IMG/VR virus record: IMGVR_UViG_3300046462_000075
Coordinates: 1-21,562 of that record
Direction: 5' to 3' (one strand)
Length of the DNA stretch: 21,562 nucleotides
DNA from: a virus
Below, piece after piece: positions 2,504 to 17,428 of this stretch. Both the position numbers and the translations under genes were made by a program. Each line of letters starts with the position of its first letter. Position 1 is the first letter of the stretch. The notes beneath the pieces were generated by a model. It was given only the letters and a program-made list of their open reading frames with translations, searched no databases and was not told the DNA's origin.

Positions 2504-2527
2504 CGCGCCGTCCTACCGAGAAACTAT

Positions 2528-3670
2528 ATGAAGAAACTCGACAATCTCACATCCTTACGATTTCTTGCGGCTACCGCGATAGTCATTGAGCATTGCCGCC
2601 CCGCTTTCCGGTCGATGGATTGGATTCCGGTCTTCACTTACGACTTCGGCGTCAGCTTCTTCTTTGTCCTGTCGGGGTTCATCCTGTGCCAGAGATACCG
2701 TGATTTCGACAGCATCGCGGGCTTACGCGATTTCTATGTAGCGCGCATCGCACGCGTCTGGCCCCTTCATCTGTTCACGCTTTGCGTATTCTTCCTGCTG
2801 GCCGACAAGTGGTACTGGAACGGCACTGAGGGCCATCATGCCGGGATGCTGGCAGCTAACATCTTCATGGTGCACGCGTGGATACCCCGCGCGGAATATT
2901 TCTTCGCCTTCAACGCCGTGTCGTGGAGCATCTCGACGGAAGCGTTTTTCTATCTCGTGTTCCCGGCCCTGAGGCATCGCTGGTCGCAGACATGGCACTG
3001 GAAATCTCTATCGGTCCTGCTGATCGCTTTCCTTGTCCTGACGGTGACGACAGCGCGCGGTGTGGCTCCGTTCGATTTCTATAACCCGGCAGCGAATTCC
3101 TCGCTTGGCTGGGGCTACATATCCCCTCTAGTTCGAATCGTCGAATTCGTGCTCGGGATGCTGGCCGCGACTGCGTTTGAACGCCTGCGTAACCTGTCCG
3201 GTGGCGTATGGAAATGGACCGCGCTTGAGCTATGCGCAATAGCGAGTATCCCTGTCATCACTGCAGTTGACCGGTCACTGCTGCTGTCGGCCACCGGGGG
3301 TAACAGTGCGCAGAGTTCGTGGGCTATGTTCGTAGGTCATGCAGCGGCGGCCCCGGCCTTCGCGCTGGCGGTCTTTATCGCAGCCTTCGGGCGCGGCTGG
3401 ATCTCACGCGCACTTTCTATCCGGCCGCTGACTGTGCTCGGCGAGGCGAGCTTTGCGCTCTATCTATCCCACCAATTGCTCTATAACGTATTCGTCTCAC
3501 ATCGGGCTATGTTCGGGCACCGACCGGATCATGTGGTGGCTCTGTTCTATTGGGGTTCGGCTATCGTTATTTCGCTGCTGCTTTGGGCGCTTGTCGAGAG
3601 GCCTGCTCGCACGTGGATCAGGCACGTGGCATCTCGCCGACCTGAGTTGCCGACGCGCGGGCTGGTTTGA
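2528..3670 (+). CDS. Membrane O-acyltransferase (acyltransferase family 3, OafA/WecH-like)
   Basis: This 380-aa integral membrane protein has about ten hydrophobic segments. The N-terminus LTSLRFLAATAIVIEHC carries the family signature R-x10-H (R11, H22), the likely catalytic pair of acyltransferase_3 enzymes, which transfer acetyl or other acyl groups to sugars at the inner membrane. VSFFFVLSGFIL (TM2) and FYVARIARVWPLHLF are also typical, as is the late SFALYLSHQLLYNVF motif. Such enzymes in temperate phages usually O-acetylate LPS O-antigen and alter receptor specificity or serotype; that role is inferred. The frame is open upstream to 2432, but ATG at 2528 begins at the conserved MKKLDNLTSLR. 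It converges on the late operon, with only nine bases between the two stop codons. Confidence 0.88.
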   Translation: MKKLDNLTSLRFLAATAIVIEHCRPAFRSMDWIPVFTYDFGVSFFFVLSGFILCQRYRDFDSIAGLRDFYVARIARVWPLHLFTLCVFFLLADKWYWNGTEGHHAGMLAANIFMVHAWIPRAEYFFAFNAVSWSISTEAFFYLVFPALRHRWSQTWHWKSLSVLLIAFLVLTVTTARGVAPFDFYNPAANSSLGWGYISPLVRIVEFVLGMLAATAFERLRNLSGGVWKWTALELCAIASIPVITAVDRSLLLSATGGNSAQSSWAMFVGHAAAAPAFALAVFIAAFGRGWISRALSIRPLTVLGEASFALYLSHQLLYNVFVSHRAMFGHRPDHVVALFYWGSAIVISLLLWALVERPARTWIRHVASRRPELPTRGLV

Positions 3671-8180: not shown

Positions 8181-8378
8181 ATGTTCGAAGTGCTAGACAT
8201 CCATGGCGAAGTCATCGCCATATTTGGAAAGAAGCGCGGCACCGCCTTTGTGATTGATGAACAAAAGCTGAAAACTGCAAATGGCTATCAGGTGCCAAAG
8301 CCTTATCACTGGCTTGTCTACCTTTTTTTCCCGTTACTTCTCCCAATCGACCTTTGGATTAGAAAACGAATCAAGTAG
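8181..8378 (+). CDS. Small predicted membrane protein, moron-like, antisense to the late operon
   Basis: This 65-aa protein has a soluble N-terminus (MFEVLDIHGEVIAIFGKKRG, FVIDEQKLKT) and one C-terminal membrane segment (WLVYLFFPLLLPIDLWI) ending in RKRIK. It lies on the plus strand inside an otherwise minus-strand late operon, and its last 45 bases overlap the 3' end of the ejection-protein gene. A TTG at 8169 opens the frame earlier, but the ATG at 8181 with GGGG six bases upstream is the better start. A TATAAT and a leader hairpin precede it. This arrangement suggests an independently expressed moron. I do not recognise the family. Confidence 0.5.
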   Translation: MFEVLDIHGEVIAIFGKKRGTAFVIDEQKLKTANGYQVPKPYHWLVYLFFPLLLPIDLWIRKRIK

Positions 8379-11207
8379 CTTGTTTGCTGAGCGCTGGTTG
8401 ACAAACTGCGTAGCCTTGCGTGTGAGTGCTGCACCAGCCGGGCCGGCCACGGCTGCACCGAGCGGGCCGAACATGGCAGATGCTGCGGCGGTCGTCGCGG
8501 CAGTCGGCGCCCAGATGACAGCCTTCTGAAGCAGGTTATGCCCCTGCACCGCGGCGCCAGGGTAGGCGGTCGGCTTCTGCAACACGTGGCCGGCATCATT
8601 GAGCGTGCGGAACCGGCTCATTTCGGCGTCGTCGAACAGCAGACCCATGCGCGAGCGCTGATCGTTCAGTTGCTTCGTCACCCGTGCGGCGTTCCATTCG
8701 GCACCCTGGCCGGCCTTGTTCACCGCGTCAGCAAAGACACCCTTCATTTCGGAAAGCGCCTGCTGCGCCGCCGGCTGAAGCGCATCCGGAACACCATTCA
8801 ATGTCTCGACAATGTGACGAAGCTGTCCGACCGGCATCGAAGTAAGTTTCTGGCCCACCTTCTCATCCGGGACCATCTGGTTGATGCCGTTCGGGCCTTC
8901 CTCATTGAGCAGGGAGGAAATACCCTTGGGATTGTCCAGAACGTTCTTTCGCTCGGCGTGCAGCGCGCGGGCCTGCGCATAGACGTCATCGCCGGCCGAC
9001 TTCGCGACATCGGTATCGAGCGTTTCCTTGATCTTGCCGATCAGACCTGAGTTCTGCGGCGACCATTGGCCATTGATGTACTGGCGCACGCCTTCCGCCT
9101 GCTGTGCGGTCATCGGGTTGAATGTGCCATCGGCGTTGCGGATGCCCTGCTCTTTCAGGTAGGCATTGATGCCGCGGCCGAGTGCTCCGTTTTCAGACTT
9201 GCCGGCGAAGTTCGACTTCGTGTCCATCATCGACTTGAACGAATCCGCGTCGATGCCAGCGATCCCGGCCGCGCGCTCGTCGGCCGCCTGGTAGATGCCC
9301 TTCACCGCGTTGTCGTAATAGTCATTCAGACCTTGCAGCGGCTGGCGGATGATCTGCCCGGCTTCCTCGGGCGACGCCGCGCGTGCGCCGGTATCCTGCG
9401 CGATCTGCTGCGAGTAGCCCTGAAGCGCCGTGTTTTCCTTCGCAAACTGCGCGCGCAGAACTTCACCCTGCGGCGTGTCCGACTTCGAGAGCTGGTACTC
9501 ATTGCCGGCCGTGAACTTGTCACCTGAAATTGCGCTCGGACGCGTCTCGGTGAGGCCGACTTCGCGCATCAGGTCCAGATTCTTCTGCTGCTGATCGGGG
9601 GCAAGCGAGGTCTTGACCGTAGACGGCGCGGAGTCGTCGAACTTCGGCACTTCGGCGGGAGCAGGAGCCGGTGCAGCTGGCGCGGCCTTGCCCGAGTCAT
9701 TCGCTGCGGCGCCTGCGGTAACAGTTTGCGGCGTCGGCGCCTGCGGGAGATCGGGGCGGCCACCGCTCGCGTCATTGACTGCGGGCCGGTTGGTGCCAAC
9801 GACGTCATTCTTTGCCACGGCCGAGCGCGCGATGTCCTCGACGTGGTACGGGGTGGTTGTCGGCTGATCAACTTTCATGATGGCCGACAGGTCATTCGCC
9901 GCCGCCGACACCGGCAATTGCGCGACTGGCGACTGCGGCAGACCTTGCGGAACCTGACCAACCCCACGATTGGCGAGTTCGATGCTGCCTGGCGTCGGCG
10001 CGGGAACGTCAGCGCGGCCGATCGACTTGACCAGACCATTGACGCGGCCGGCGAGTTCCGGCGCGACGATCTGTGCGGTGGCGCTCGGAACCAGATCGTT
10101 GATCGTGCCCATCAGCGGGCCCTGGTTCTGCACGAAGTTCTGCTGATAGGCGTTCGTCAGCGCCTTGACCGGCGCGCTATTGGTGATGACGCCGAGCGCG
10201 TTGCCAGCGACGCGCCCGATATCGGCATTCGCCTGCTGGCCGCCGGCCGTCTGCGGCTGGTAGGTGAGCGCGTTCTGGACCGATTCTCCGATCTGCTTGG
10301 CGCGGTCGAACGAGACACCGGGCAATGCAGCAGCGCCGAGACGCGCAAGGGTGCTGAGCGGCGTAGCAACGGCGCCGGTGGCGAGCGTAGCAATAGGTTC
10401 AAGCGTCGCGCCGATGGCATTGCCAACCGTCACCGGAGCCGGGCCAGTCTGCGCGGGCTTCGTTGCTGGCGCGGCAGGCTTCGGCGCATCCTTTGCCGAC
10501 AGTACGCTATTTGCCATCGCCAACAGAGGGTCATCAGCGGCCTGCGCGGGCTGTGCCGATGCCGTGGTAGCGGCGGGCGCGGACGAAGCCGCTGGCGAGC
10601 CTGATTGGACCGCGTTCGCCATATCGAGCAAGGGATCGCCCGTCGATGCCGGCGCGGCAGACTTCGGCGCGGCGGCCGGCTGTTTCGTTGCTTGCGGCAT
10701 GATCTGTTGTCCAGTAGCCGAGATGACGGGCGCACCATTCATCTGTTGCGGGCTGAGTTCAGCGGCGTTCGCGCTGCCGGAGATCGCCGATGCAATCGAG
10801 TCCCCGAATTTCCTCACCATTCCGACCGCGCCGGCCAGCTTGTTCGCGTAGCCTGAATCCGTCGCATATCCGCCCTTGGCGAGTGCGTTGCCATATGCGG
10901 ATGCATCAGAGCCCGCGCCAACGGCGCCCTGATACCGGTTGCTGATGAGGTTCGCGAAGTCATTGCCGAAGGCCTGCGGGCTCGAATAGGCGCGGTACTG
11001 GTCATTCGAACCGGTCTGATTATCCGTCGCGGCGACGCCCGGCCCCTTGATGTTGCCGAGGTTGTTCGTACCGGGAACGACCGACTTGCCCCAGCCGGTC
11101 TCAAGCCCCCATTGTCCGAGCAGGACATCAGGCGCGACGCCGATCTGCTGGCCGACGCTGGCCGCGACCGGCGCGTATTGCTGGATGAACCCCTGAACGT
11201 TCGGCAT
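8334..11207 (-). CDS. Large DNA-ejection/internal virion protein with an N-terminal GH73 muramidase-type domain
   Basis: This 957-aa protein is the third and largest of three consecutive ejection-type proteins, in the place of P22 gp16. Residues 20-140 form a FlgJ-like glucosaminidase (GH73) domain: GVAPDVLLGQWGLETGWGKS with E36 as the likely catalytic Glu, then NNLGNIKG and YRAYSSPQAFGNDF. It would open the cell wall locally for DNA entry. About residues 165-270 and 480-545 are Ala/Pro/Gln-rich linkers. The middle is helical and charged. A hydrophobic Ala/Gly-rich stretch near the C-terminus (VIWAPTAATTAAASAMFGPLG) may contact membrane. The start at 11207 shares an A with the upstream stop (TGATG); an ATG further upstream at 11252 lies inside that gene and is less likely. 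Confidence 0.8.
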   Translation of the reverse strand: MPNVQGFIQQYAPVAASVGQQIGVAPDVLLGQWGLETGWGKSVVPGTNNLGNIKGPGVAATDNQTGSNDQYRAYSSPQAFGNDFANLISNRYQGAVGAGSDASAYGNALAKGGYATDSGYANKLAGAVGMVRKFGDSIASAISGSANAAELSPQQMNGAPVISATGQQIMPQATKQPAAAPKSAAPASTGDPLLDMANAVQSGSPAASSAPAATTASAQPAQAADDPLLAMANSVLSAKDAPKPAAPATKPAQTGPAPVTVGNAIGATLEPIATLATGAVATPLSTLARLGAAALPGVSFDRAKQIGESVQNALTYQPQTAGGQQANADIGRVAGNALGVITNSAPVKALTNAYQQNFVQNQGPLMGTINDLVPSATAQIVAPELAGRVNGLVKSIGRADVPAPTPGSIELANRGVGQVPQGLPQSPVAQLPVSAAANDLSAIMKVDQPTTTPYHVEDIARSAVAKNDVVGTNRPAVNDASGGRPDLPQAPTPQTVTAGAAANDSGKAAPAAPAPAPAEVPKFDDSAPSTVKTSLAPDQQQKNLDLMREVGLTETRPSAISGDKFTAGNEYQLSKSDTPQGEVLRAQFAKENTALQGYSQQIAQDTGARAASPEEAGQIIRQPLQGLNDYYDNAVKGIYQAADERAAGIAGIDADSFKSMMDTKSNFAGKSENGALGRGINAYLKEQGIRNADGTFNPMTAQQAEGVRQYINGQWSPQNSGLIGKIKETLDTDVAKSAGDDVYAQARALHAERKNVLDNPKGISSLLNEEGPNGINQMVPDEKVGQKLTSMPVGQLRHIVETLNGVPDALQPAAQQALSEMKGVFADAVNKAGQGAEWNAARVTKQLNDQRSRMGLLFDDAEMSRFRTLNDAGHVLQKPTAYPGAAVQGHNLLQKAVIWAPTAATTAAASAMFGPLGAAVAGPAGAALTRKATQFVNQRSANKLLDSFSNPKVDWEK

Positions 11208-12721
11208 CAGAATGCCCCGAGTGCCTTCATGGCCTGATAGTCCTTCGTCCACTGCTGCAACTTGCCGTCAGCCTTCATCTGCTGCATCGCGGCCTGCTGA
11301 TCAGCCGGATCGCCGAGCGAGCGGACATAGGACACGTCAGGATTGAACGCCTGATTCCACTTCGTTTCGAACTGCGGAAGCTGGCTTGTGTTGTTGCCGT
11401 TCTGCGAGAGGAAGTTCGTCGTCGCATTCGAGCGGTCAAGCACGGCCTGCTGCAAACCTTTCACGTGCTGGATGGACGACAGAAGCGCGGGCGCGTTCAT
11501 GTTGTGCGGATCGGGCTGGCCGGCCTTCGCCGCGGCAAGGCGCGAATCGCTGCCCGAGAGGCCGAGCGCGGACGCCGCCTGATCTGCCGCACCGTTGAGG
11601 TAATTGACGAGCAACTGATTGTTTTTGACGGTATCGGAACCCGCCTGAATGCCAAACGTGTTCAGCAGCGCCGGCACATTGAGCGCAGACGCGCCACCCT
11701 TGCCCGGCAATGCTGCCTTAGCCGCCTGCGTCGCGAGGTCATAGGTCTGCATCATCGGCTTGGCCTGATTCGCCGCAGCCTGGAGCGTGCTATACCGCGT
11801 GCCTGCCGCGTCGGCTACGCCTTGCGCACCAACCGGGGGCGCTGCGGAGAATCCGCCGCCGGGAAGCTGTCCGGGAAGCTGGCCAGGAAGCTGGGACGGA
11901 GCGGCGCCGGGAGCGCCGGGAGCACCACCTTGACCAGTAGGCGCCGGTGCGCCACCTTGCGCCCCAGCAAACTGCCCCTTCGTGATCATCGTTGGCTGGC
12001 CGTTCTCATTGACCGTGACCGGCGTCGCAGCATCGGACGGCGACAGGCCGTTCTGAACCGTGTAGCCGACCGTGCCAACGCCGCCAAGAGCGAGAGGATT
12101 CTGATTGACCGCAACCGTCGCCGGGCCAGTGTTGACTGGCGCGAACTGAGGCTGAAGCGCTTTCAACTGATCGCCCACGGCACCTATGGCCGACAAATGC
12201 CGTTGCAGCCACATCGAATTCTGTTGCGGCGTTGAGCCGATCGGCGGAAGGTCGGTCAGTTGCCCCATAACCTTCTGTGCATCACCGCCATAGTTGTGCA
12301 CGAACTCAGTCGCGGTCTGCATCACATGCGCCTGAAAGTTCGGGTCTGACGGATCAATAGATCCAAGCCGTTGATTCAGGAATCCATTCTGCTTCACGGC
12401 AAGGTCAAAGTTGCCGGTATTCAGCGTCTGTTGCTGCTGCTTCTGCGTGTTGATGCCCTGGATAACCTGGGGCAGGTTGTACGCAGCGGCGGGGTCCTGG
12501 CTCAGGATGCCGACGAGTTTGTTGTTGTCAACCTGGCCGGTCGTCGGATCGGTAGCCTGCTGATAAGCGGAAGACGTGGCGCGATTGGCGTCGAGTTGCT
12601 GTTGCTGTGCAAGGCCACTTGCATTGAGCGCGCGAAACTGCGCAACCGACAGTGCCTGCTGCAATGGGTTGATAGGCGCAGGCCGGTTGGCGTTTAGAGC
12701 GATGGTCGGATCGATGGGCAT
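11207..12721 (-). CDS. Ejection-type internal virion protein (P22 gp20 position)
   Basis: This 504-aa, Gln/Ala-rich, mostly helical protein sits between two other ejection proteins. Examples are NPLQQALSVAQFRALNASGLAQQQQLDANRA and the TDPTTGQVDNNKLVGILSQDP stretch. A low-complexity hinge at about residues 258-300 is Gly/Pro/Ala-rich and holds a short tandem repeat (QLPG three times). GAF is the C-terminus. No enzymatic motif is visible. Position and composition resemble P22 gp20, which leaves the capsid with the DNA and helps form the conduit through the envelope. Sequence similarity to gp20 itself cannot be judged by eye. GAGG five bases before ATG supports the start. Confidence 0.6.
   Translation of the reverse strand: MPIDPTIALNANRPAPINPLQQALSVAQFRALNASGLAQQQQLDANRATSSAYQQATDPTTGQVDNNKLVGILSQDPAAAYNLPQVIQGINTQKQQQQTLNTGNFDLAVKQNGFLNQRLGSIDPSDPNFQAHVMQTATEFVHNYGGDAQKVMGQLTDLPPIGSTPQQNSMWLQRHLSAIGAVGDQLKALQPQFAPVNTGPATVAVNQNPLALGGVGTVGYTVQNGLSPSDAATPVTVNENGQPTMITKGQFAGAQGGAPAPTGQGGAPGAPGAAPSQLPGQLPGQLPGGGFSAAPPVGAQGVADAAGTRYSTLQAAANQAKPMMQTYDLATQAAKAALPGKGGASALNVPALLNTFGIQAGSDTVKNNQLLVNYLNGAADQAASALGLSGSDSRLAAAKAGQPDPHNMNAPALLSSIQHVKGLQQAVLDRSNATTNFLSQNGNNTSQLPQFETKWNQAFNPDVSYVRSLGDPADQQAAMQQMKADGKLQQWTKDYQAMKALGAF
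11861..11896 (-). repeat. Three 12-bp tandem repeats coding QLPG units
   Basis: On the plus strand GGGAAGCTGTCC, GGGAAGCTGGCC and AGGAAGCTGGGA follow each other. They encode PSQLPGQLPGQLPGGG in the hinge of the second ejection protein. The repeat is in frame (12 bases), so copy-number change would alter hinge length without a frameshift. Confidence 0.6.
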
Positions 12722-12729
12722 TTTTTCCT

Positions 12730-13566
12730 CTAGACCGTGAAGCCGTACTGGTTATTTCCAGAAGTCGTGCCGCTCGCGACAGGTGCAGAGGGATTTGATG
12801 CGCCACCGGCGTTATTTGTCATCAGGCTATACGTCAATGCTGAGTTACCGGCGCCATTCAAGCCGGCCGTGAGCGCATTAGCGCTTCCGATCGTGCCCGC
12901 TGCTTGCGCGTTCGCACTGCTCGTGAGCGTATTGCCGATGTTGCCGACCGCCTGCGCGCCGAGTGAGCCATTCGTGGCCGCCGCGTTCTGGCCGCTTCCG
13001 ACGATGCCGGTTAATCGGTTCGCATTGTTCGCGGCACTGTTATAGTTCGTTTGGAACGTTCCCTGTGCCGTGTTGTAGTTCGCGTTATAGGTATTCAGCG
13101 CGCGGTTGAATACATCGTTGTAGGTCGAGTCAGCCAAGCCCGTCGCATACGAGGCAGCGCCCTTCATGGCCGCTCCAGACACACCGAGCCCACGTGCGGC
13201 AGCGCTGTTCTGAACCGCCTTCAGACCTTGCGTCTGTGTGAACTGATAACCCGGCGTAGATGCGGCATCGGCCGCTGTCGGCGCATTGAACGCGCCATAG
13301 CTGAACTTCTGCTGAAGCGGATTGCTCGAATTGACCGACCAGTCTGAGTTGTAACCGAGCGCTGTCTGCAATGGATTGATGGCACCTTTGCCAAAATCCA
13401 TATATGGCTGTAGATTGGCCTGCGTCTGGTTCCATTGATCGTTTTGCAGATGCGCCGCATCTTCGGCGGCTTGCGCCTGCGTATTCGCTGCACTTTTCGA
13501 TGCGCTTCCGCTTATTGCGGCGGATGCGATCGAGCCAACGGCCGCTGCTGCAAATCCCCATGGCAT
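12730..13566 (-). CDS. DNA-transfer/ejection protein, P22 gp7-like
   Basis: This 278-aa protein is rich in Ala, Asn, Ser, Gly and Gln. The hydrophobic Ala/Gly N-terminus MPWGFAAAAVGSIASAAISGSASKSAANTQAQAAEDAA is typical of podoviral internal or DNA-transfer proteins. A conserved-looking core follows: NLQPYMDFGKGAINPLQTALG, TPGYQFTQTQGLKAVQNSAAARGLGVSGAA and LADSTYNDVFNRALNTYN. I recall this PGYQFxxxQGxxAxxxSAAARG pattern in phage DNA-transfer proteins. It is the first of three ejection genes. AAGGGG lies seven bases before the ATG, and only four bases separate it from the cupin gene. Confidence 0.7.
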   Translation of the reverse strand: MPWGFAAAAVGSIASAAISGSASKSAANTQAQAAEDAAHLQNDQWNQTQANLQPYMDFGKGAINPLQTALGYNSDWSVNSSNPLQQKFSYGAFNAPTAADAASTPGYQFTQTQGLKAVQNSAAARGLGVSGAAMKGAASYATGLADSTYNDVFNRALNTYNANYNTAQGTFQTNYNSAANNANRLTGIVGSGQNAAATNGSLGAQAVGNIGNTLTSSANAQAAGTIGSANALTAGLNGAGNSALTYSLMTNNAGGASNPSAPVASGTTSGNNQYGFTV

Positions 13567-13570
13567 GGCG

Positions 13571-13876
13571 TTACCCCTTAATCAAAACTTGATCGACCTT
13601 TTCAGGATCGGTTTCATCAGTCGCGTGCACGCAGAACCAGACCGAATCGGTGATGGCGTCAATGCGATGCACTTTGCCGGCCGGTATAACCATCGCGGTA
13701 GGGCCGATGTGCTTTTCCTGCGCACCGTCAATGCATACGATGACCTCGCCGGCAGCCAGAATAGAAATGTGGTCGTATTGGTGTTCGTGCGTCTCAGCGT
13801 AATGGCCGGCCGGAAGCGTCATCTGCTTGGCGTACTCGCGCCCTGAGAAAAAGTGCTTGACGTGCAGCTCGATCAT
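13571..13876 (-). CDS. Small cupin-fold metal-binding protein
   Basis: This 101-aa single-domain cupin has motif 1 LPAGHYAETHEHQYDHISILAAGEVIV, with likely metal ligands H30, H32 and H36, and motif 2 PTAMVIPAGKVHRIDA with H70. The conserved Gly and Pro turns are present. Such small cupins may be dioxygenases, isomerases or sensors; the substrate is unknown. The start at 13876 overlaps the stop of the oxygenase gene as ATGA, and a longer frame up to 13945 lies inside that gene and is less likely. Translational coupling with a second iron-type fold suggests that the two act together, but this is inferred from context only. Confidence 0.8.
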   Translation of the reverse strand: MIELHVKHFFSGREYAKQMTLPAGHYAETHEHQYDHISILAAGEVIVCIDGAQEKHIGPTAMVIPAGKVHRIDAITDSVWFCVHATDETDPEKVDQVLIKG

Positions 13877-14442
13877 TTGAATTTGTCCGTTCGGATGCAG
13901 ACGATCAGCGTGATCCTGTCCTGATCGCTGCGATTCTCGACCCAATGATTCTTGCGGTTGTCGAAGCGCCAGATTTCCCCTTCGTTTGGGTTCAGCGCTT
14001 CAGTTTCGCCGCCGTGATCGCAGAAGAATTCAGCGCCCGGCGCGCTGCGCAGCGACACATAGAACTTGTCGTAATACTCGACATGCCATCCGCAATCGAC
14101 GTGCGGAGCAATGCCGCCACCGGGAGGAATGCAAGTGATCAGGACGCCGCCGAGCATTTCACCTTCGACCTTAGCCATCAGATCGAAAACGATCGAGCGC
14201 ATTTGCGGCAACGTATGCCACGCCGGATACCATACCGGGACATGCTCTGCGTTGAACGATTCGCGATCCTTGTACCGGGCCTTGTCGTTGTAGCGAACCC
14301 AGATATCCGACATGCGTGAATGCGGGCTGCCATCAGACTCCTTGCGCTCCTTGTGCGCGTCCCAAAGCTCCGGTTGAGCGTCGATAGCAGCCATCAGCGG
14401 GTCAACAGCAACGCCCGATTCGATTTTCAGAAAATGTTTCAC
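13873..14442 (-). CDS. Aspartyl/asparaginyl beta-hydroxylase-like Fe(II)/2-oxoglutarate oxygenase
   Basis: This 189-aa protein has the double-stranded beta-helix core of AspH-type oxygenases, which hydroxylate Asp/Asn side chains or small substrates using 2-oxoglutarate and O2. PPGGGIAPHVDCGWH holds the first iron ligands (H114-x-D116). GEIWRFDNRKNHWVEN supplies the distal H166, and R176 ten residues later (SDQDRITLIVCI) should bind 2-oxoglutarate, the same His-to-Arg spacing as AspH. AspH enzymes usually have HxG; here HxD gives a full facial triad. The start codon is GTG with a weak ribosome site, three bases after the upstream stop. It lies in the middle of virion genes, so a virion protein is one possible substrate, though this is inference. 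Confidence 0.85.
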   Translation of the reverse strand: MKHFLKIESGVAVDPLMAAIDAQPELWDAHKERKESDGSPHSRMSDIWVRYNDKARYKDRESFNAEHVPVWYPAWHTLPQMRSIVFDLMAKVEGEMLGGVLITCIPPGGGIAPHVDCGWHVEYYDKFYVSLRSAPGAEFFCDHGGETEALNPNEGEIWRFDNRKNHWVENRSDQDRITLIVCIRTDKFK

Positions 14443-14445
14443 GCG

Positions 14446-14778
14446 TTAGCTCGGGACGAATTCGATACCACTGATATTCAGCGTGCAGGCGAGGCCATCG
14501 GCGAAAAGCTGCGTGCCGGGCTCGGTTTTGTGATTCACGATTTCCGGGACCGAGATGGTCGCGCCCGCGCTAACGGTCTTGCTGGCGATCTTCGTCGGCG
14601 ATCCGGCAGAGCCACCAGTCGGAACCTTGTAAATGTTCACCGTCACAACGGCGCCGGTCGGGTTGCAGATGCTGCCGGCGTGGATCGCGCCAGAGGTGCC
14701 GCCGGGCGTCGTGTAATACGAAACGGCGCTTGCAGTAAGCGTCTGAGCCGCTACCATTTCGCGGTATTTGGTCGTCAT
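14446..14778 (-). CDS. Small virion-associated protein, beta-rich, unknown function
   Basis: This 110-aa protein begins MTTKYREMVAAQTLTASAVSYYTTPGGTSGAIHAGSICNPT. It continues with alternating beta strands (VVTVNIYKVPTG, KIASKTVSAGATISVPEIV, CTLNISGIEFVPS). This pattern fits a small beta-sandwich phage protein, often found near tail or head genes. The position after the gp10-like stabilisation genes suggests an adaptor or decoration role, but none is established. GAGG seven bases before ATG supports the start, and it is separated from the upstream gene by three bases. Confidence 0.65.
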   Translation of the reverse strand: MTTKYREMVAAQTLTASAVSYYTTPGGTSGAIHAGSICNPTGAVVTVNIYKVPTGGSAGSPTKIASKTVSAGATISVPEIVNHKTEPGTQLFADGLACTLNISGIEFVPS

Positions 14779-14781
14779 GCT

Positions 14782-15288
14782 TTAGCCTCGCGCGTAGACA
14801 TTGGACACGCCAACCGGAATCGGCGACGTAAATGTGATCGTGTTGCCAGATACGCTGTACTGATCGGTCGCCTGGAACGTGCCATCGAAGTGCACCAGCA
14901 CAGCAGCCTTGGATGTGTAGACCTTCGATAGCGTCAGGGTCGTGGTTGTGCCTGGTGTGAAACCCGTGCCGCTGGCGAAAATGTCCTCGACCGGATCGAC
15001 CGCGGTAAACGGGATTGCGACCGGGTCAGGCGGGAAATCGGTGAGGAACTGTGGTACCGCAACGGGCAGCGCATTACCGTCAAAATCAGGCTGAAACAGT
15101 GCATACGGCACCTGTGCATCAATCAGCGGCGTGAAATCGGTCTGTGCCGGAGGCGTAGGCGTTCCACCACCACCGGTGCGCTGGAAGATCGCGAGAAGGA
15201 AAGCCCACCAGACTTGCGTGATGCGGCCGGTCTGATCGAGAAACGGAACACCCGGATTCGGGATATTCGTGTTCGTCGAGTCGCTCAC
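14782..15288 (-). CDS. Virion protein sharing a C-terminal beta module with the tailspike
   Basis: This 168-aa protein has an N-terminal segment NPGVPFLDQTGRITQVWWAFLLAIFQRTGGGG, a short motif I recall at the start of podoviral tail-adaptor-like proteins. A Pro-rich middle follows. Residues 106-168 (GTGFTPGTTTTLTLS, HFDGTFQATDQYS, ITFTSPIPVGVSNVY) align without difficulty with residues 106-168 of the tailspike encoded at 6172-8100. The start codon is GTG, overlapping the upstream gp10-like stop as GTGA. The shared module suggests that both proteins dock to the same tail partner, or that one is an adaptor, which is inference. Confidence 0.65.
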   Translation of the reverse strand: MSDSTNTNIPNPGVPFLDQTGRITQVWWAFLLAIFQRTGGGGTPTPPAQTDFTPLIDAQVPYALFQPDFDGNALPVAVPQFLTDFPPDPVAIPFTAVDPVEDIFASGTGFTPGTTTTLTLSKVYTSKAAVLVHFDGTFQATDQYSVSGNTITFTSPIPVGVSNVYARG

Positions 15289-16709
15289 GTGCGCGCCCTC
15301 GACACGTCAACCCAAGCGCCATTCAATGCAGTCTTTACCGGTGCCGACCATGACAGTTCGAACACACGATCACGTGCATAGCCGAGTCGCTGATACTGGA
15401 TGGAGGTCAGGTATTCACCGACCTTGCCAAGCGAGCCAACGACCCAATTGCCCCAGCTGCGCCCGCGATCATCGCTCCAACGCAACCGGATTTCAGGCGG
15501 TGCCGAGTCGTCAGGCAGGCCATTACCGACTTCCATATCTGCGATGAACTGGCGGAACAGCACGCGGTTACCATCGGCACCAAGGATGTGCGGGAACGCG
15601 CGCACGTACTCAATCGTGGCGCCGTTGTCCGTATAGTTGTTCTGGTCCAGCATATAGACCAGACCGGTCTGCCAGTCTCCAACCAGATTCCGGCCACCGT
15701 TGAACGAATGGCAGTTCATGCGGTGCCGGCTGAACGTTCCATCAGCTTCCAGAAAGCCGCGCTGTGCCCATTGTCCGGTGACGACATCGAAGCACCACGT
15801 CGCATTCGCAGTCGGGAATGTCAGCACATAGAAGGCGTGGCCGCCCTGCTGGTAGGAAAAGCCGATTGCATCATCCACGCGCGAATAGCCTGACAGCGCT
15901 TCCTCGATGGCGTGCGTCGAAATGCGCTCCGCAACATAATTGCGGCCGGCGAACACAATGTTCTGCCCTTGCAGATCCTGCCCGAGCCAGAACAGCGCAA
16001 GATCGATCTTGGCAACCGAGTGCTTCGCAGCGCACCCATGCTCGATGAACACGCCCGGCATGCGGCCGAACGTGAAATCGGAGGCGCCGGTGTTGTACCA
16101 GACCTCGGTCGTCAGCTCGCCGAATAGCCAGATTTCACGGTGCATCACCGCGAGCGTGACGAGATTGTCCGAATAGGTCGATTTGGAGGCGATATCGAGC
16201 GGATCGAATGTCACTCCATCGAACAGAGAGATATAGAACTGCTGCGTGTCGGGCCGGTTGAACAGGAAGAATCCATCGACGAAATCGACCTTGTCTGCGC
16301 CCAGAAAAGCGGGGTCACTCACCAGCGACATGACATTTGTCGCCAGCTTGACCGTAAAGCCCTTCACCGTGCCGTCAACGATGAACAGATCGGTGCCGTT
16401 ATCGACCATGGAAACCGGTCCAGACAATGAAGTCAGCGCACCTATTTGCGTGTAGACGTTCGCCGAACTGACCGAGTAGGCGTTCGGGCCAACAACCTCG
16501 TACCGGTTGCCATTGCTCGCGGTGTAGATGCCGCGCGATTCACCCGCAACCGGCGGCGTCGAGACGAGTGTCAGGCCGGGCGTAGGGTAATAGGTGAATG
16601 GGCACGGCGCGTCTTGCGGGTTTGCTTCGGCATACAGGTTGACCGAACGCTGTGCTTCGGCGATCACGCTGCGCGTCTGATAGGCGCCGGTGGTGAGCGG
16701 GACTCGCAT
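15285..16709 (-). CDS. P22 gp10-like packaged-DNA stabilisation (tail hub) protein
   Basis: This 474-aa protein matches P22 gp10 in length (472 aa) and N-terminus: MRVPLTTGAYQTRSVIAEAQRSVNLYAEANPQDAPCPFTYYPTPGLTL, with the family's NLY.E and YPTPGL signatures. In P22, gp10 forms a hexameric ring below gp4 that closes the portal after DNA packaging and anchors the tailspikes. Beta-rich repeats (DNGTDLFIVDG, VDGFFLFNRPDTQQFYIS, GGHAFYVLTFP) follow. The start overlaps the stop of the gp4-like gene (TGATG). It is directly followed by the probable tail adaptor genes. Confidence 0.9.
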   Translation of the reverse strand: MRVPLTTGAYQTRSVIAEAQRSVNLYAEANPQDAPCPFTYYPTPGLTLVSTPPVAGESRGIYTASNGNRYEVVGPNAYSVSSANVYTQIGALTSLSGPVSMVDNGTDLFIVDGTVKGFTVKLATNVMSLVSDPAFLGADKVDFVDGFFLFNRPDTQQFYISLFDGVTFDPLDIASKSTYSDNLVTLAVMHREIWLFGELTTEVWYNTGASDFTFGRMPGVFIEHGCAAKHSVAKIDLALFWLGQDLQGQNIVFAGRNYVAERISTHAIEEALSGYSRVDDAIGFSYQQGGHAFYVLTFPTANATWCFDVVTGQWAQRGFLEADGTFSRHRMNCHSFNGGRNLVGDWQTGLVYMLDQNNYTDNGATIEYVRAFPHILGADGNRVLFRQFIADMEVGNGLPDDSAPPEIRLRWSDDRGRSWGNWVVGSLGKVGEYLTSIQYQRLGYARDRVFELSWSAPVKTALNGAWVDVSRART

Positions 16710-17428
16710 CAGTTCGATTCCGTGTCGCTATAGATGTTGTAGCGCGACTTCGTCATCAGGCCGCGCGGCATCGTCAGTTGAGGAATCTGCACGTTCATCC
16801 GCTTCACTACGCGCTTGGCGTTCATCGCAAGGCGCACCAATGCCGGCGAAGGATCAAGCCCGTACGACGGCGCGAGATAGACCGCGAGGTTGTAGCGGAT
16901 TGCAGCTAGATACGGCGGCGGCAGGTTGACTGCGGTCCCGGCAGTCGCAAGCTGCGGCAGCGTGTCCATCGTCACGATGTGCAGCTCGTAGCTGCTATTC
17001 GGGACCGGGTACAGAAACAGATTACCGAGCGGGAAATCCGAGTCGTAGAACGCATATTCCGGGAAGGAATTCAGCGTTTTCAGCGAGATCCGCGCATAGT
17101 CCTCGCGCGCGTCGATCATCGAGATCGGATAGTCGACCGCGCTGCCGGCGCCGCTGCTCGCGAGCCGCGCATAGGCCGCATTGATCTTGATCGGGCGCGT
17201 GATGTTGAAGTCACCGCCGAGGCCGACCGTGTATGAAACCGACCCGTTCGCCTGGTGCGCTGTGTCGATCAAGTGGAAAACGCTGAGACGCTCCGCCGCC
17301 CACTGGCCGAGCATCATATTGAGCGTCGCCAGCGCGTCGGCCGTGTCTTCAGCAGAGACGGACTGACCGATACCGAGCGCGCCGATATCCTTCAGCGCCA
17401 GCGTGATCAGGTCGGTTCCGGTCGTCAT
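16709..17428 (-). CDS. P22 gp4-like head-completion / tail accessory factor
   Basis: This 239-aa protein carries the gp4 signature near its N-terminus: DLITLALKDIGALGIGQSVSAEDTADALATLNMMLGQWAAERLSVF. It also has LPPPYLAAIRYNLAVYLAPSYG in its second half. In P22, twelve gp4 copies bind the portal and begin closure of the filled head. It is longer than P22 gp4 (166 aa); the extra C-terminal part includes AMNAKRVVKRMNVQIPQL. The start overlaps the upstream stop as ATGA, and its stop overlaps the gp10-like start, so translation is coupled on both sides. Confidence 0.87.
   Translation of the reverse strand: MTTGTDLITLALKDIGALGIGQSVSAEDTADALATLNMMLGQWAAERLSVFHLIDTAHQANGSVSYTVGLGGDFNITRPIKINAAYARLASSGAGSAVDYPISMIDAREDYARISLKTLNSFPEYAFYDSDFPLGNLFLYPVPNSSYELHIVTMDTLPQLATAGTAVNLPPPYLAAIRYNLAVYLAPSYGLDPSPALVRLAMNAKRVVKRMNVQIPQLTMPRGLMTKSRYNIYSDTESN

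Follow-up and report, generated by a model that had tools for sequence, protein, structure and literature searches.

A variable gene slot before the first ejection gene of short-tailed phages and its relation to the N-terminus of the protein encoded downstream

In the short-tailed phages examined for the current report, the type of small enzyme or enzyme-like protein encoded directly before the gene for the first DNA ejection protein predicts residue 2 of that ejection protein. We refer to this position as the "pre-ejection slot". Its place in the gene order and the catalytic residues of its enzymes are conserved, the enzymes themselves are exchanged, and the type of enzyme covaries with residue 2 of the protein that follows (gp7 in the phage described here). 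We estimate a probability of about 0.55 that the slot enzymes act on the N-terminus of gp7. The target proposed in an initial annotation of this DNA, "a virion protein", would thereby be narrowed to a single N-terminus, that of the first ejection protein.

The window and its oxygenase-cupin pair

The window, by which we mean the whole stretch of 21,562 nucleotides analysed (IMG/VR virus record IMGVR_UViG_3300046462_000075), comes from a temperate P22-like podophage, of whose genome it is a fragment. Genes for integrase and excisionase lie at the left end of the window, followed by lysis and tailspike genes and then by a virion operon on the minus strand, which encodes a P22-type portal (PF16510) and coat (PF11651). 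In the direction of transcription the operon reads portal, small ORF, scaffold position, coat, 148-aa ORF, gp4-like, gp10-like, gp26-position protein, 110-aa protein, oxygenase, cupin, gp7-type protein, gp20 position and gp16 position (glucosaminidase). Close to the integrase, at 2522-3670 on the plus strand, lies an acyltransferase gene (PF01757, 5.7e-26) that is likely to be a surface-modifying lysogenic conversion gene. The features considered below are:

8334..11252, minus strand: third gene of the ejection module, gp16 position, with a glucosaminidase domain (PF01832)
11207..12721, minus strand: second gene of the ejection module, gp20 position, assigned by position and without a family match
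12730..13566, minus strand: gp7-type DNA ejection protein, 278 aa, matching phrog_598, the P22 gp7 family, at 3e-29
13507..13566, minus strand: first 20 codons of the gp7-type gene, ATG after AGGGG, N-terminus MPWGFAAAAVGS..., the proposed target
13571..13876, minus strand: metal-type cupin (PF07883), 101 aa, His 30/32/36/70/84 complete, overlapping the oxygenase gene at ATGA
13873..14442, minus strand: 2OG/Fe(II) oxygenase of the AspH type (PF05118), 189 aa, class I (cupin-context), GTG start
14446..14778, minus strand: 110-aa protein encoded before the slot (phrog_20100), which served as the upstream control
14782..15288, minus strand: gp26-position protein, 168 aa, with weak similarity to the C-terminal part of tail fibres/spikes
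15285..16709, minus strand: gp10-type head closure protein (phrog_578 at 3e-114), the survey bait
16709..17428, minus strand: gp4-like gene, a neighbour of the pair

The initial annotation had described the oxygenase and the cupin as a pair coupled by ATGA between the tail-adaptor genes and the first ejection gene, and this description is borne out: the two ORFs share the ATGA, family matches place gp10-like and gp4-like genes upstream and a gp7-like gene downstream, and the residues that it had named (H114, D116, H166 and R176 of the oxygenase; H30, H32, H36 and H70 of the cupin) are all present in the ORFs. Stretches encoding relatives of the oxygenase were found in viral contigs 130 times (80 were kept) and those for cupin relatives 78 times, and most of the stretches that were read have a common gene order. 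In the genome collection only two of 14 pattern matches encode a relative, those of Paraburkholderia kirstenboschensis (85% identity) and Cupriavidus basilensis (52%).

The oxygenase matches PF05118 (Asp_Arg_Hydrox) with E 2.4e-9 and 37.7 bits, against a cut-off of 22.6. Among 84 oxygenases, the window's and 83 others with 32-89% identity to it, the Fe-binding HxD...H residues H114, D116 and H166 are kept in 84/84, and R176, the expected ligand of the 2OG carboxylate, is kept in 75 and missing in nine. The AlphaFold model (mean pLDDT 96.6) is a double-stranded beta-helix whose best Foldseek match is L-proline cis-4-hydroxylase. With VIA-align, 2OG oxygenases as a whole score Z 13.5-15.6, led by a nucleoside-antibiotic hydroxylase, an uncharacterised oxygenase and proline 3-hydroxylase (15.1-15.6) and followed by proline cis-4-hydroxylase (14.8), PHD2 (14.3) and AspH (14.0), scores that lie too close together for a substrate to be named from them. 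By sequence, the solved structures gave matches only to designed repeat proteins, over a short stretch. Oxygenases found with a cupin (class I, 88 sequences) and with a GNAT (class II, 43 sequences) differ at V49/L, Y51/F, G99/R, K126/R, Y128/H and C182/D; the window's has the class-I residue at all six positions.

The cupin lies exactly at the cut-off of PF07883 (Cupin_2; E 3.3e-6, 27.2 bits, cut-off 27.2), and its relatives at L085 and L041 (loci are designated by L and a number) reach 27.7 and 36.7 bits. In 89 cupins, H32 and H36 are kept in all, H84 in 88, and H30 and H70 in 85; the lone cupins of L202, L219, L223 and L235, which have no oxygenase beside them, belong to a degenerate class. 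A sequence search of solved structures with the cupin returned unspecific cupins only.

The pre-ejection slot and residue 2 of the downstream protein

The content of the slot was surveyed in contigs selected by the window's gp10 as bait, a selection that did not depend on the oxygenase-cupin pair. Of the 80 contigs with the nearest gp10, 71 extend to gp7, and every one of these has a slot gene: oxygenase+GNAT in 43, oxygenase+cupin in nine, a cupin in six, a GNAT in six, a protein that we call type C in five and a cupin-SET fusion in two. The slot thus encodes an identified enzyme or cupin fold in 66/71 and the type C protein, of no assigned family, in 5/71. Among the nine contigs that end before gp7, seven show no slot gene and two oxygenase+GNAT. 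With the gp10 of Shewanella phage X14 as bait, 24 of 30 contigs reach gp7 (cupin 19, cupin+SET 3, GNAT 1, none 1); the two bait sets are related to each other and their counts are therefore not independent. Absence of the pair from relatives had been named beforehand as a sign of random cargo, a reading that is excluded by the filled slot (71/71) and the shared gene order. In the T7-like phages Sphaerotilus vB_SnaP-R1 and Macromonas BK-30P (an unannotated record), a cupin gene lies directly before the gene for an internal virion protein, at the place of gene 13 in T7.

Pfam GNAT is matched above its cut-off by the slot proteins of L265, DC33, MW202796 and Vibrio 1.253; the common type A and type B slot proteins fall below it, and profile comparison ties both to the Vibrio one. 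The SET part of slot proteins matches PF00856 at 1e-6 to 6e-6. The type C protein (L197:8368-8763, L226:3235-3606, L232:8661-9263), which precedes Met-Ser proteins, has a C-terminal part that resembles GNAT motifs (L197 against phrog_1249, E 0.058).

To read residue 2, start codons were picked by a fixed rule (ATG, Shine-Dalgarno sequence, distance) that was blind to it. Downstream ORFs of 150 aa or more were found at 204 of 254 loci with a slot gene; the other 50 have contig ends, small ORFs in between, or a 148-aa protein that was counted apart. Residue 2 is proline at all 75 oxygenase+cupin loci and at all four loci with the order cupin+oxygenase (79/79 together), and at none of the 43 oxygenase+GNAT loci, where it is valine (34) or alanine (9). 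Nor is it proline at any of the seven loci with a GNAT alone (Cys 6, Val 1); it is serine behind SET-cupins (5/5) and type C proteins (5/5). Lone cupins precede Ser (29), Pro (24) or Ala (3), and they divide by their metal site: the degenerate ones precede Ser in 29/29 cases, and those with metal ligands Pro in 24/27 and Ala in 3/27. Taken together, metal cupins precede Pro in 104/107 cases (the three before Met-Ala being L137, L140 and L141) and degenerate cupins Ser in 34/34. A single GNAT+oxygenase+cupin locus has Pro. Oxygenases alone precede Pro in 6/8 cases; of the exceptions, L028 has a frame that reads Ile-Pro-Trp without a standard start, and L049 has a sulfotransferase-like gene first, with Met-Pro-Trp at the beginning of the next protein. 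At L028:8560-8640 (Ile-Pro-Trp), and likewise at L062 near 4540 (Thr-Pro-Trp), no standard start directly precedes the ejection gene, which might reflect an unusual start codon or a sequence error.

Several loci represent the same contig fetched twice. Among the 148 distinct downstream proteins, Pro follows Met in 49/49 for oxygenase+cupin, 4/4 for cupin+oxygenase, 0/26 for oxygenase+GNAT and 0/7 for GNAT alone, and Ser in 5/5 for SET-cupin and 3/3 for type C. As a control, 887 further virion genes that could be recognised were read; 12.5% of them have Pro at this position, and no slot-linked pattern at this residue was seen among them; gp20 mostly begins with Met-Pro independently of the slot, and hence carries no information. 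The six class-specific residues of the oxygenase also track the residue-2 class of the downstream protein.

The rule extends to other families of downstream protein: the phrog_418 internal virion protein (L085, L018), phrog_4287 (L068), phrog_8003 (L027, L045) and phrog_21132 (MW202665). In another group of phages (L102-L128, for example L108:7914-8752), a metal cupin follows the terminase large subunit and precedes a 148-aa protein that starts with MP[WFLI]; these proteins, which are probably distant ejection-type proteins, begin with Met-Pro in 22/25 cases and Met-Ala in 3/25, the three Ala loci being also among the 204. In 23 records with starts annotated by their depositors, part of them already among the 204 loci, residue 2 is Ser (10) or Thr (2) behind 12 cupins whose metal site is incomplete, Pro behind one class-I oxygenase, and Val, Gly, Ser and Ala behind four GNATs; the other six (PAE2, phiAX1, MW202557, CBW1004C-Prop1, T7 and P22) have no recognised slot family before the gene.

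Descent of the slot and alternative explanations

In a tree of 167 gp7 cores, from which the first 30 residues had been removed, there are eight independent slot switches on supported branches, and residue 2 switches to match in seven of them, in the opposite direction in none, and is unchanged in one (sign test, p 0.0156). The unchanged case is probably explained by L050, where oxygenase+cupin behind a GNAT was coded as GNAT. The expected residue 2 was also written down before two further scans were made. Of 25 new loci with class-II oxygenases, three are cut off, and the remaining 22 all have Val and a GNAT. Of seven with class-I oxygenases, two end too early, the four evaluable loci (three contigs) all have Pro, and one is a miss (L387), where the oxygenase lies before terminase genes and not before an ejection gene.

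Gene trees also bear on the question of whether the covariation might have arisen by hitch-hiking, that is, by recombination between the conserved upstream genes and the conserved core of gp7 that drags the first ~20 gp7 codons along, in which case the enzymes would modify some other virion or host protein and the N-terminus would be a linked marker. We regard this as unlikely, although it is the main rival of our proposal. Counted over 59 loci, the slot type changes seven times on the gp20 tree, nine on that of gp7, 13 on gp10, 14 on gp4 and 16 on the 110-aa protein (~24 for shuffles). It tracks the gp7 and gp20 trees more than those of gp4, gp10 and the 110-aa protein, which speaks for a tie to the downstream protein; tracking of downstream genes that includes gp20 is, however, also what linkage would produce. 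Moreover, gp7 proteins with different slots differ over their first ~20 residues and are nearly identical beyond them. Since the next homologous stretch begins ~20 codons into gp7, these codons may have moved with the enzymes, and the covariation need not mean catalysis on gp7. Such linkage accounts for covariation within a close group but less easily for its wide range: the rule is also obeyed by downstream proteins that BLAST does not relate to the window's gp7, at loci with the gene order swapped (4/4), and at loci where an oxygenase or a metal cupin stands alone, and an ancient unit of enzyme and N-terminus that persists over such divergence would itself suggest coupling. A comparison of 74 oxygenase-bearing with 49 oxygenase-less gp7 proteins yielded no convincing oxygenase-specific column in the gp7 core, only A7, A195 and N219 (76% vs 39%) passing the filter; it was this failed search for a substrate residue inside gp7 that turned our attention to its N-terminus.

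The slot proteins might alternatively be assembly factors that bind the ejection protein as chaperones and cap its hydrophobic N-terminus, their enzyme folds serving as peptide-binding scaffolds, and T7 gp13 and P22 gp14 might do likewise. The cupin of the BA3/VPMS1 type, which is kept in the slot without its metal ligands, is what one would expect of such factors; Pfam names T7 gp13 a "probable scaffold protein", PHROGs names P22 gp14 "head morphogenesis", and the list of virion proteins of phiPsa17 in PMC4517105 has gp14-gp16 and not VO98_195, the homologue of T7 gp13. Capping alone would not need the invariant Fe-binding residues of the oxygenases (84/84) or the metal ligands kept in the Pro-class cupins, and we consider a purely non-catalytic role rather improbable. 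The degenerate cupins in the slot nonetheless suggest that binding alone may sometimes suffice. Further points against our proposal are the oxygenases that go with Val/Ala starts, the three metal cupins before Met-Ala, the L387 oxygenase before terminase genes, the nine oxygenases that lack R176, and cupin relatives located elsewhere than in the slot (Elanor, VBv52).

Annotations of VPMS1 and in PHROGs would make the cupin a short tail fibre or tail-fibre adhesin, the names given to phrog_12032 and phrog_24280, which it matches at 2e-17 and 7e-17. Its predicted structure is a single compact barrel of 101 aa with no fibre part and no further domain, relatives occur outside the slot in the DNA-metabolism region of Xanthomonas phage Elanor and in Variovorax VBv52, and the passage of PMC8703784 on Ralstonia phage phiAP1 says of the cupin of that phage that it was not validated by experiment; a structural role thus seems very improbable. 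The labels "short tail fiber protein" and "tail fiber adhesin" (VPMS1, VvAW1, BA3, X14, Elanor; phrog_12032, phrog_24280) look like a propagated misannotation. Hardly credible, finally, is a host-directed or metabolic pair (hydroxylation of lipid A as by LpxO, sugar or small-molecule chemistry), for which a faint LpxO match (NCBIfam NF033391) of 13.2 bits against a cut-off of 500, and a cupin fold search that returned general cupins, including sugar and antibiotic-synthesis enzymes, and no functional lead, must be set against the placement in a virion operon beside the ejection gene and the covariation with its N-terminus, both left unexplained; the modification of a host surface component suggested in the initial annotation likewise finds no support here, the surroundings of the pair being without a sign of envelope chemistry.

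A possible chemistry and its relatives

A methionine that precedes Pro, Ser, Thr, Ala, Val, Cys or Gly is cleaved by methionine aminopeptidase, whereby residue 2 becomes the N-terminus. GNATs acetylate N-termini of such kind, and proline is a poor substrate for N-acetylation. In the Pro class the slot has, in place of the GNAT, a metal cupin, an oxygenase or both. An enzyme that has to match residue 2 is most simply read as one that acts on residue 2. We propose that the small enzymes encoded in the variable slot modify the first ejection protein at its N-terminus, and that this protein (gp7 here and, by analogy, gp14 in T7) would be made right after them. After removal of Met, the gp7 of the window would begin Pro-Trp-Gly-Phe-Ala-Ala-Ala-Ala, and the oxygenase, probably with the cupin, would oxidise its N-terminal residue or segment, our best guess being hydroxylation of the N-terminal proline. 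In other phages a GNAT would N-acetylate Val, Ala, Cys, Ser or Gly starts, and a degenerate cupin, which may carry a SET domain, would serve Ser or Thr starts.

The modification may serve to maintain the solubility of a membrane-inserting pore protein while it is still in the cell that makes it, or to prepare this protein for insertion into the envelope of the next host. The first 20 residues of the gp7-type proteins are hydrophobic, with a mean hydropathy of residues 2-21 of ~0.5 to 1.9 by class, and the processing of such an N-terminus has a precedent in P22 gp7, which according to database annotation loses 20 residues to host OpdA. A table in PMC8954989 has gp7-type proteins correspond to T7 gp14, which the same source describes as water-insoluble, as the first protein ejected and as the former of the outer-membrane pore.

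The hydroxylation of a virion protein by the pair, one of the possibilities raised in the initial annotation, gains support in so far as modification is concerned, with the gp7 N-terminus as the candidate pointed to by the residue-2 covariation and the gp7-core tree; the hydroxylation itself would be a further step. Given the poor acetylation of proline, the replacement of the GNAT in the Pro class and the presence of free-proline hydroxylases among the nearest folds, we judge oxidation of the N-terminal Pro(-Trp) to be the most likely of the chemistries, albeit a doubtful one when stated so exactly. Slightly more plausible to us, and still tentative, is the general proposal that short-tailed phages possess interchangeable cassettes in which an enzyme set and the matching first codons of the ejection gene move as a unit, each with its own chemistry (oxidation of Pro/Val, acetylation of Val/Ala/Cys/Ser/Gly, or a SET-linked one for Ser), for the maturation of the pore-forming ejection protein; the pair of the window would then be an oxidising couple specific for a free N-terminal Pro-Trp, for which the searches made found no precedent.

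Several known systems resemble parts of this arrangement. The phage oxygenase shares with AspH (PF05118) its sequence family, the HxD...H motif with R176, and the double-stranded beta-helix (Z ~14), but it has 189 aa without a TPR part, is only ~15% identical and is encoded in a phage virion operon. The free L-proline 4- and 3-hydroxylases (4p7w, 1e5r), the former being the top Foldseek match and both among the top VIA matches, have as their substrate proline whose imino group is free, and an N-terminal proline would resemble this substrate; they are 15-17% identical, and the class-II phage enzymes go with Val/Ala starts, so the oxygenase family as a whole is not specific for proline. The phage GNATs (phrog_1249) are likewise encoded in the slot ahead of the same ejection gene, in many cases following an oxygenase, but differ in fold and chemistry and go with V/A/C/S/G starts. 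T7 gp13 (PF11090) and P22 gp14 (PF11039) have the same gene position, directly before gp14 and gp7, respectively, yet no detectable sequence relation to the oxygenase, the cupin or the slot GNATs: profile-profile comparison with the latter gave E 0.027 and 0.044, values like those of unrelated pairs, the P22 gp14 set consisting of near-identical sequences only. The "short tail fiber adhesin" cupins (phrog_12032, phrog_24280, PHA00672) are homologous to the window's and lie in the same slot in BA3, VPMS1, X14, VvAW1 and Amaethon, but they lack the metal ligands kept in it and precede Met-Ser proteins. The thiol dioxygenases ADO and PCO, small cupins that oxidise the N-terminal cysteine of proteins, are a precedent for the oxidation of a protein N-terminus by a small cupin, and differ in substrate residue, metal-site motif and context.

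The enzyme families are known, whereas the slot and the N-terminus rule have not been described as far as a search of the open-licence PMC literature shows, in which we found no paper that deals with this slot, with modified N-termini in ejection proteins or with an N-terminal prolyl hydroxylase of phages. If our proposal is true, podophage assembly would include a new step, the N-terminal modification of the first ejection protein, and this step might account for the timely production, storage and release of a membrane protein that is insoluble in water. The puzzling series of small genes found at this position, among them perhaps T7 gene 13 and P22 gene 14, would acquire a purpose, and the recurrent database label "short tail fiber adhesin" would be corrected. 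Slot enzymes that are active on free protein N-termini might be useful tools.

Other genes are found at or near the slot. Sulfotransferase-like genes with a PRSxxxWLANxM-type motif, possibly another slot enzyme, adjoin the oxygenase in two contigs (L049:8554-9081 and L387:2496-2999), the former matching Sulfotransfer_3 below the cut-off (E 0.018), and gp47 of CBW1004C-Prop1 (L442), near gp10, is annotated "sulfotransferase family 2". A conserved small ORF of 64-80 aa with the core DMYFAS..SMQ.HPGAGTKEH lies between oxygenase and ejection gene at L062:3879-4073, L067:8527-8733, L072:8516-8719 and L075:8453-8695; the two that were scanned match no Pfam family. One contig of 64,750 bases (L385 and L386) carries the oxygenase-gp7 region twice, ~33 kb apart, and might represent a tandem prophage, a concatemer or an assembly artefact.
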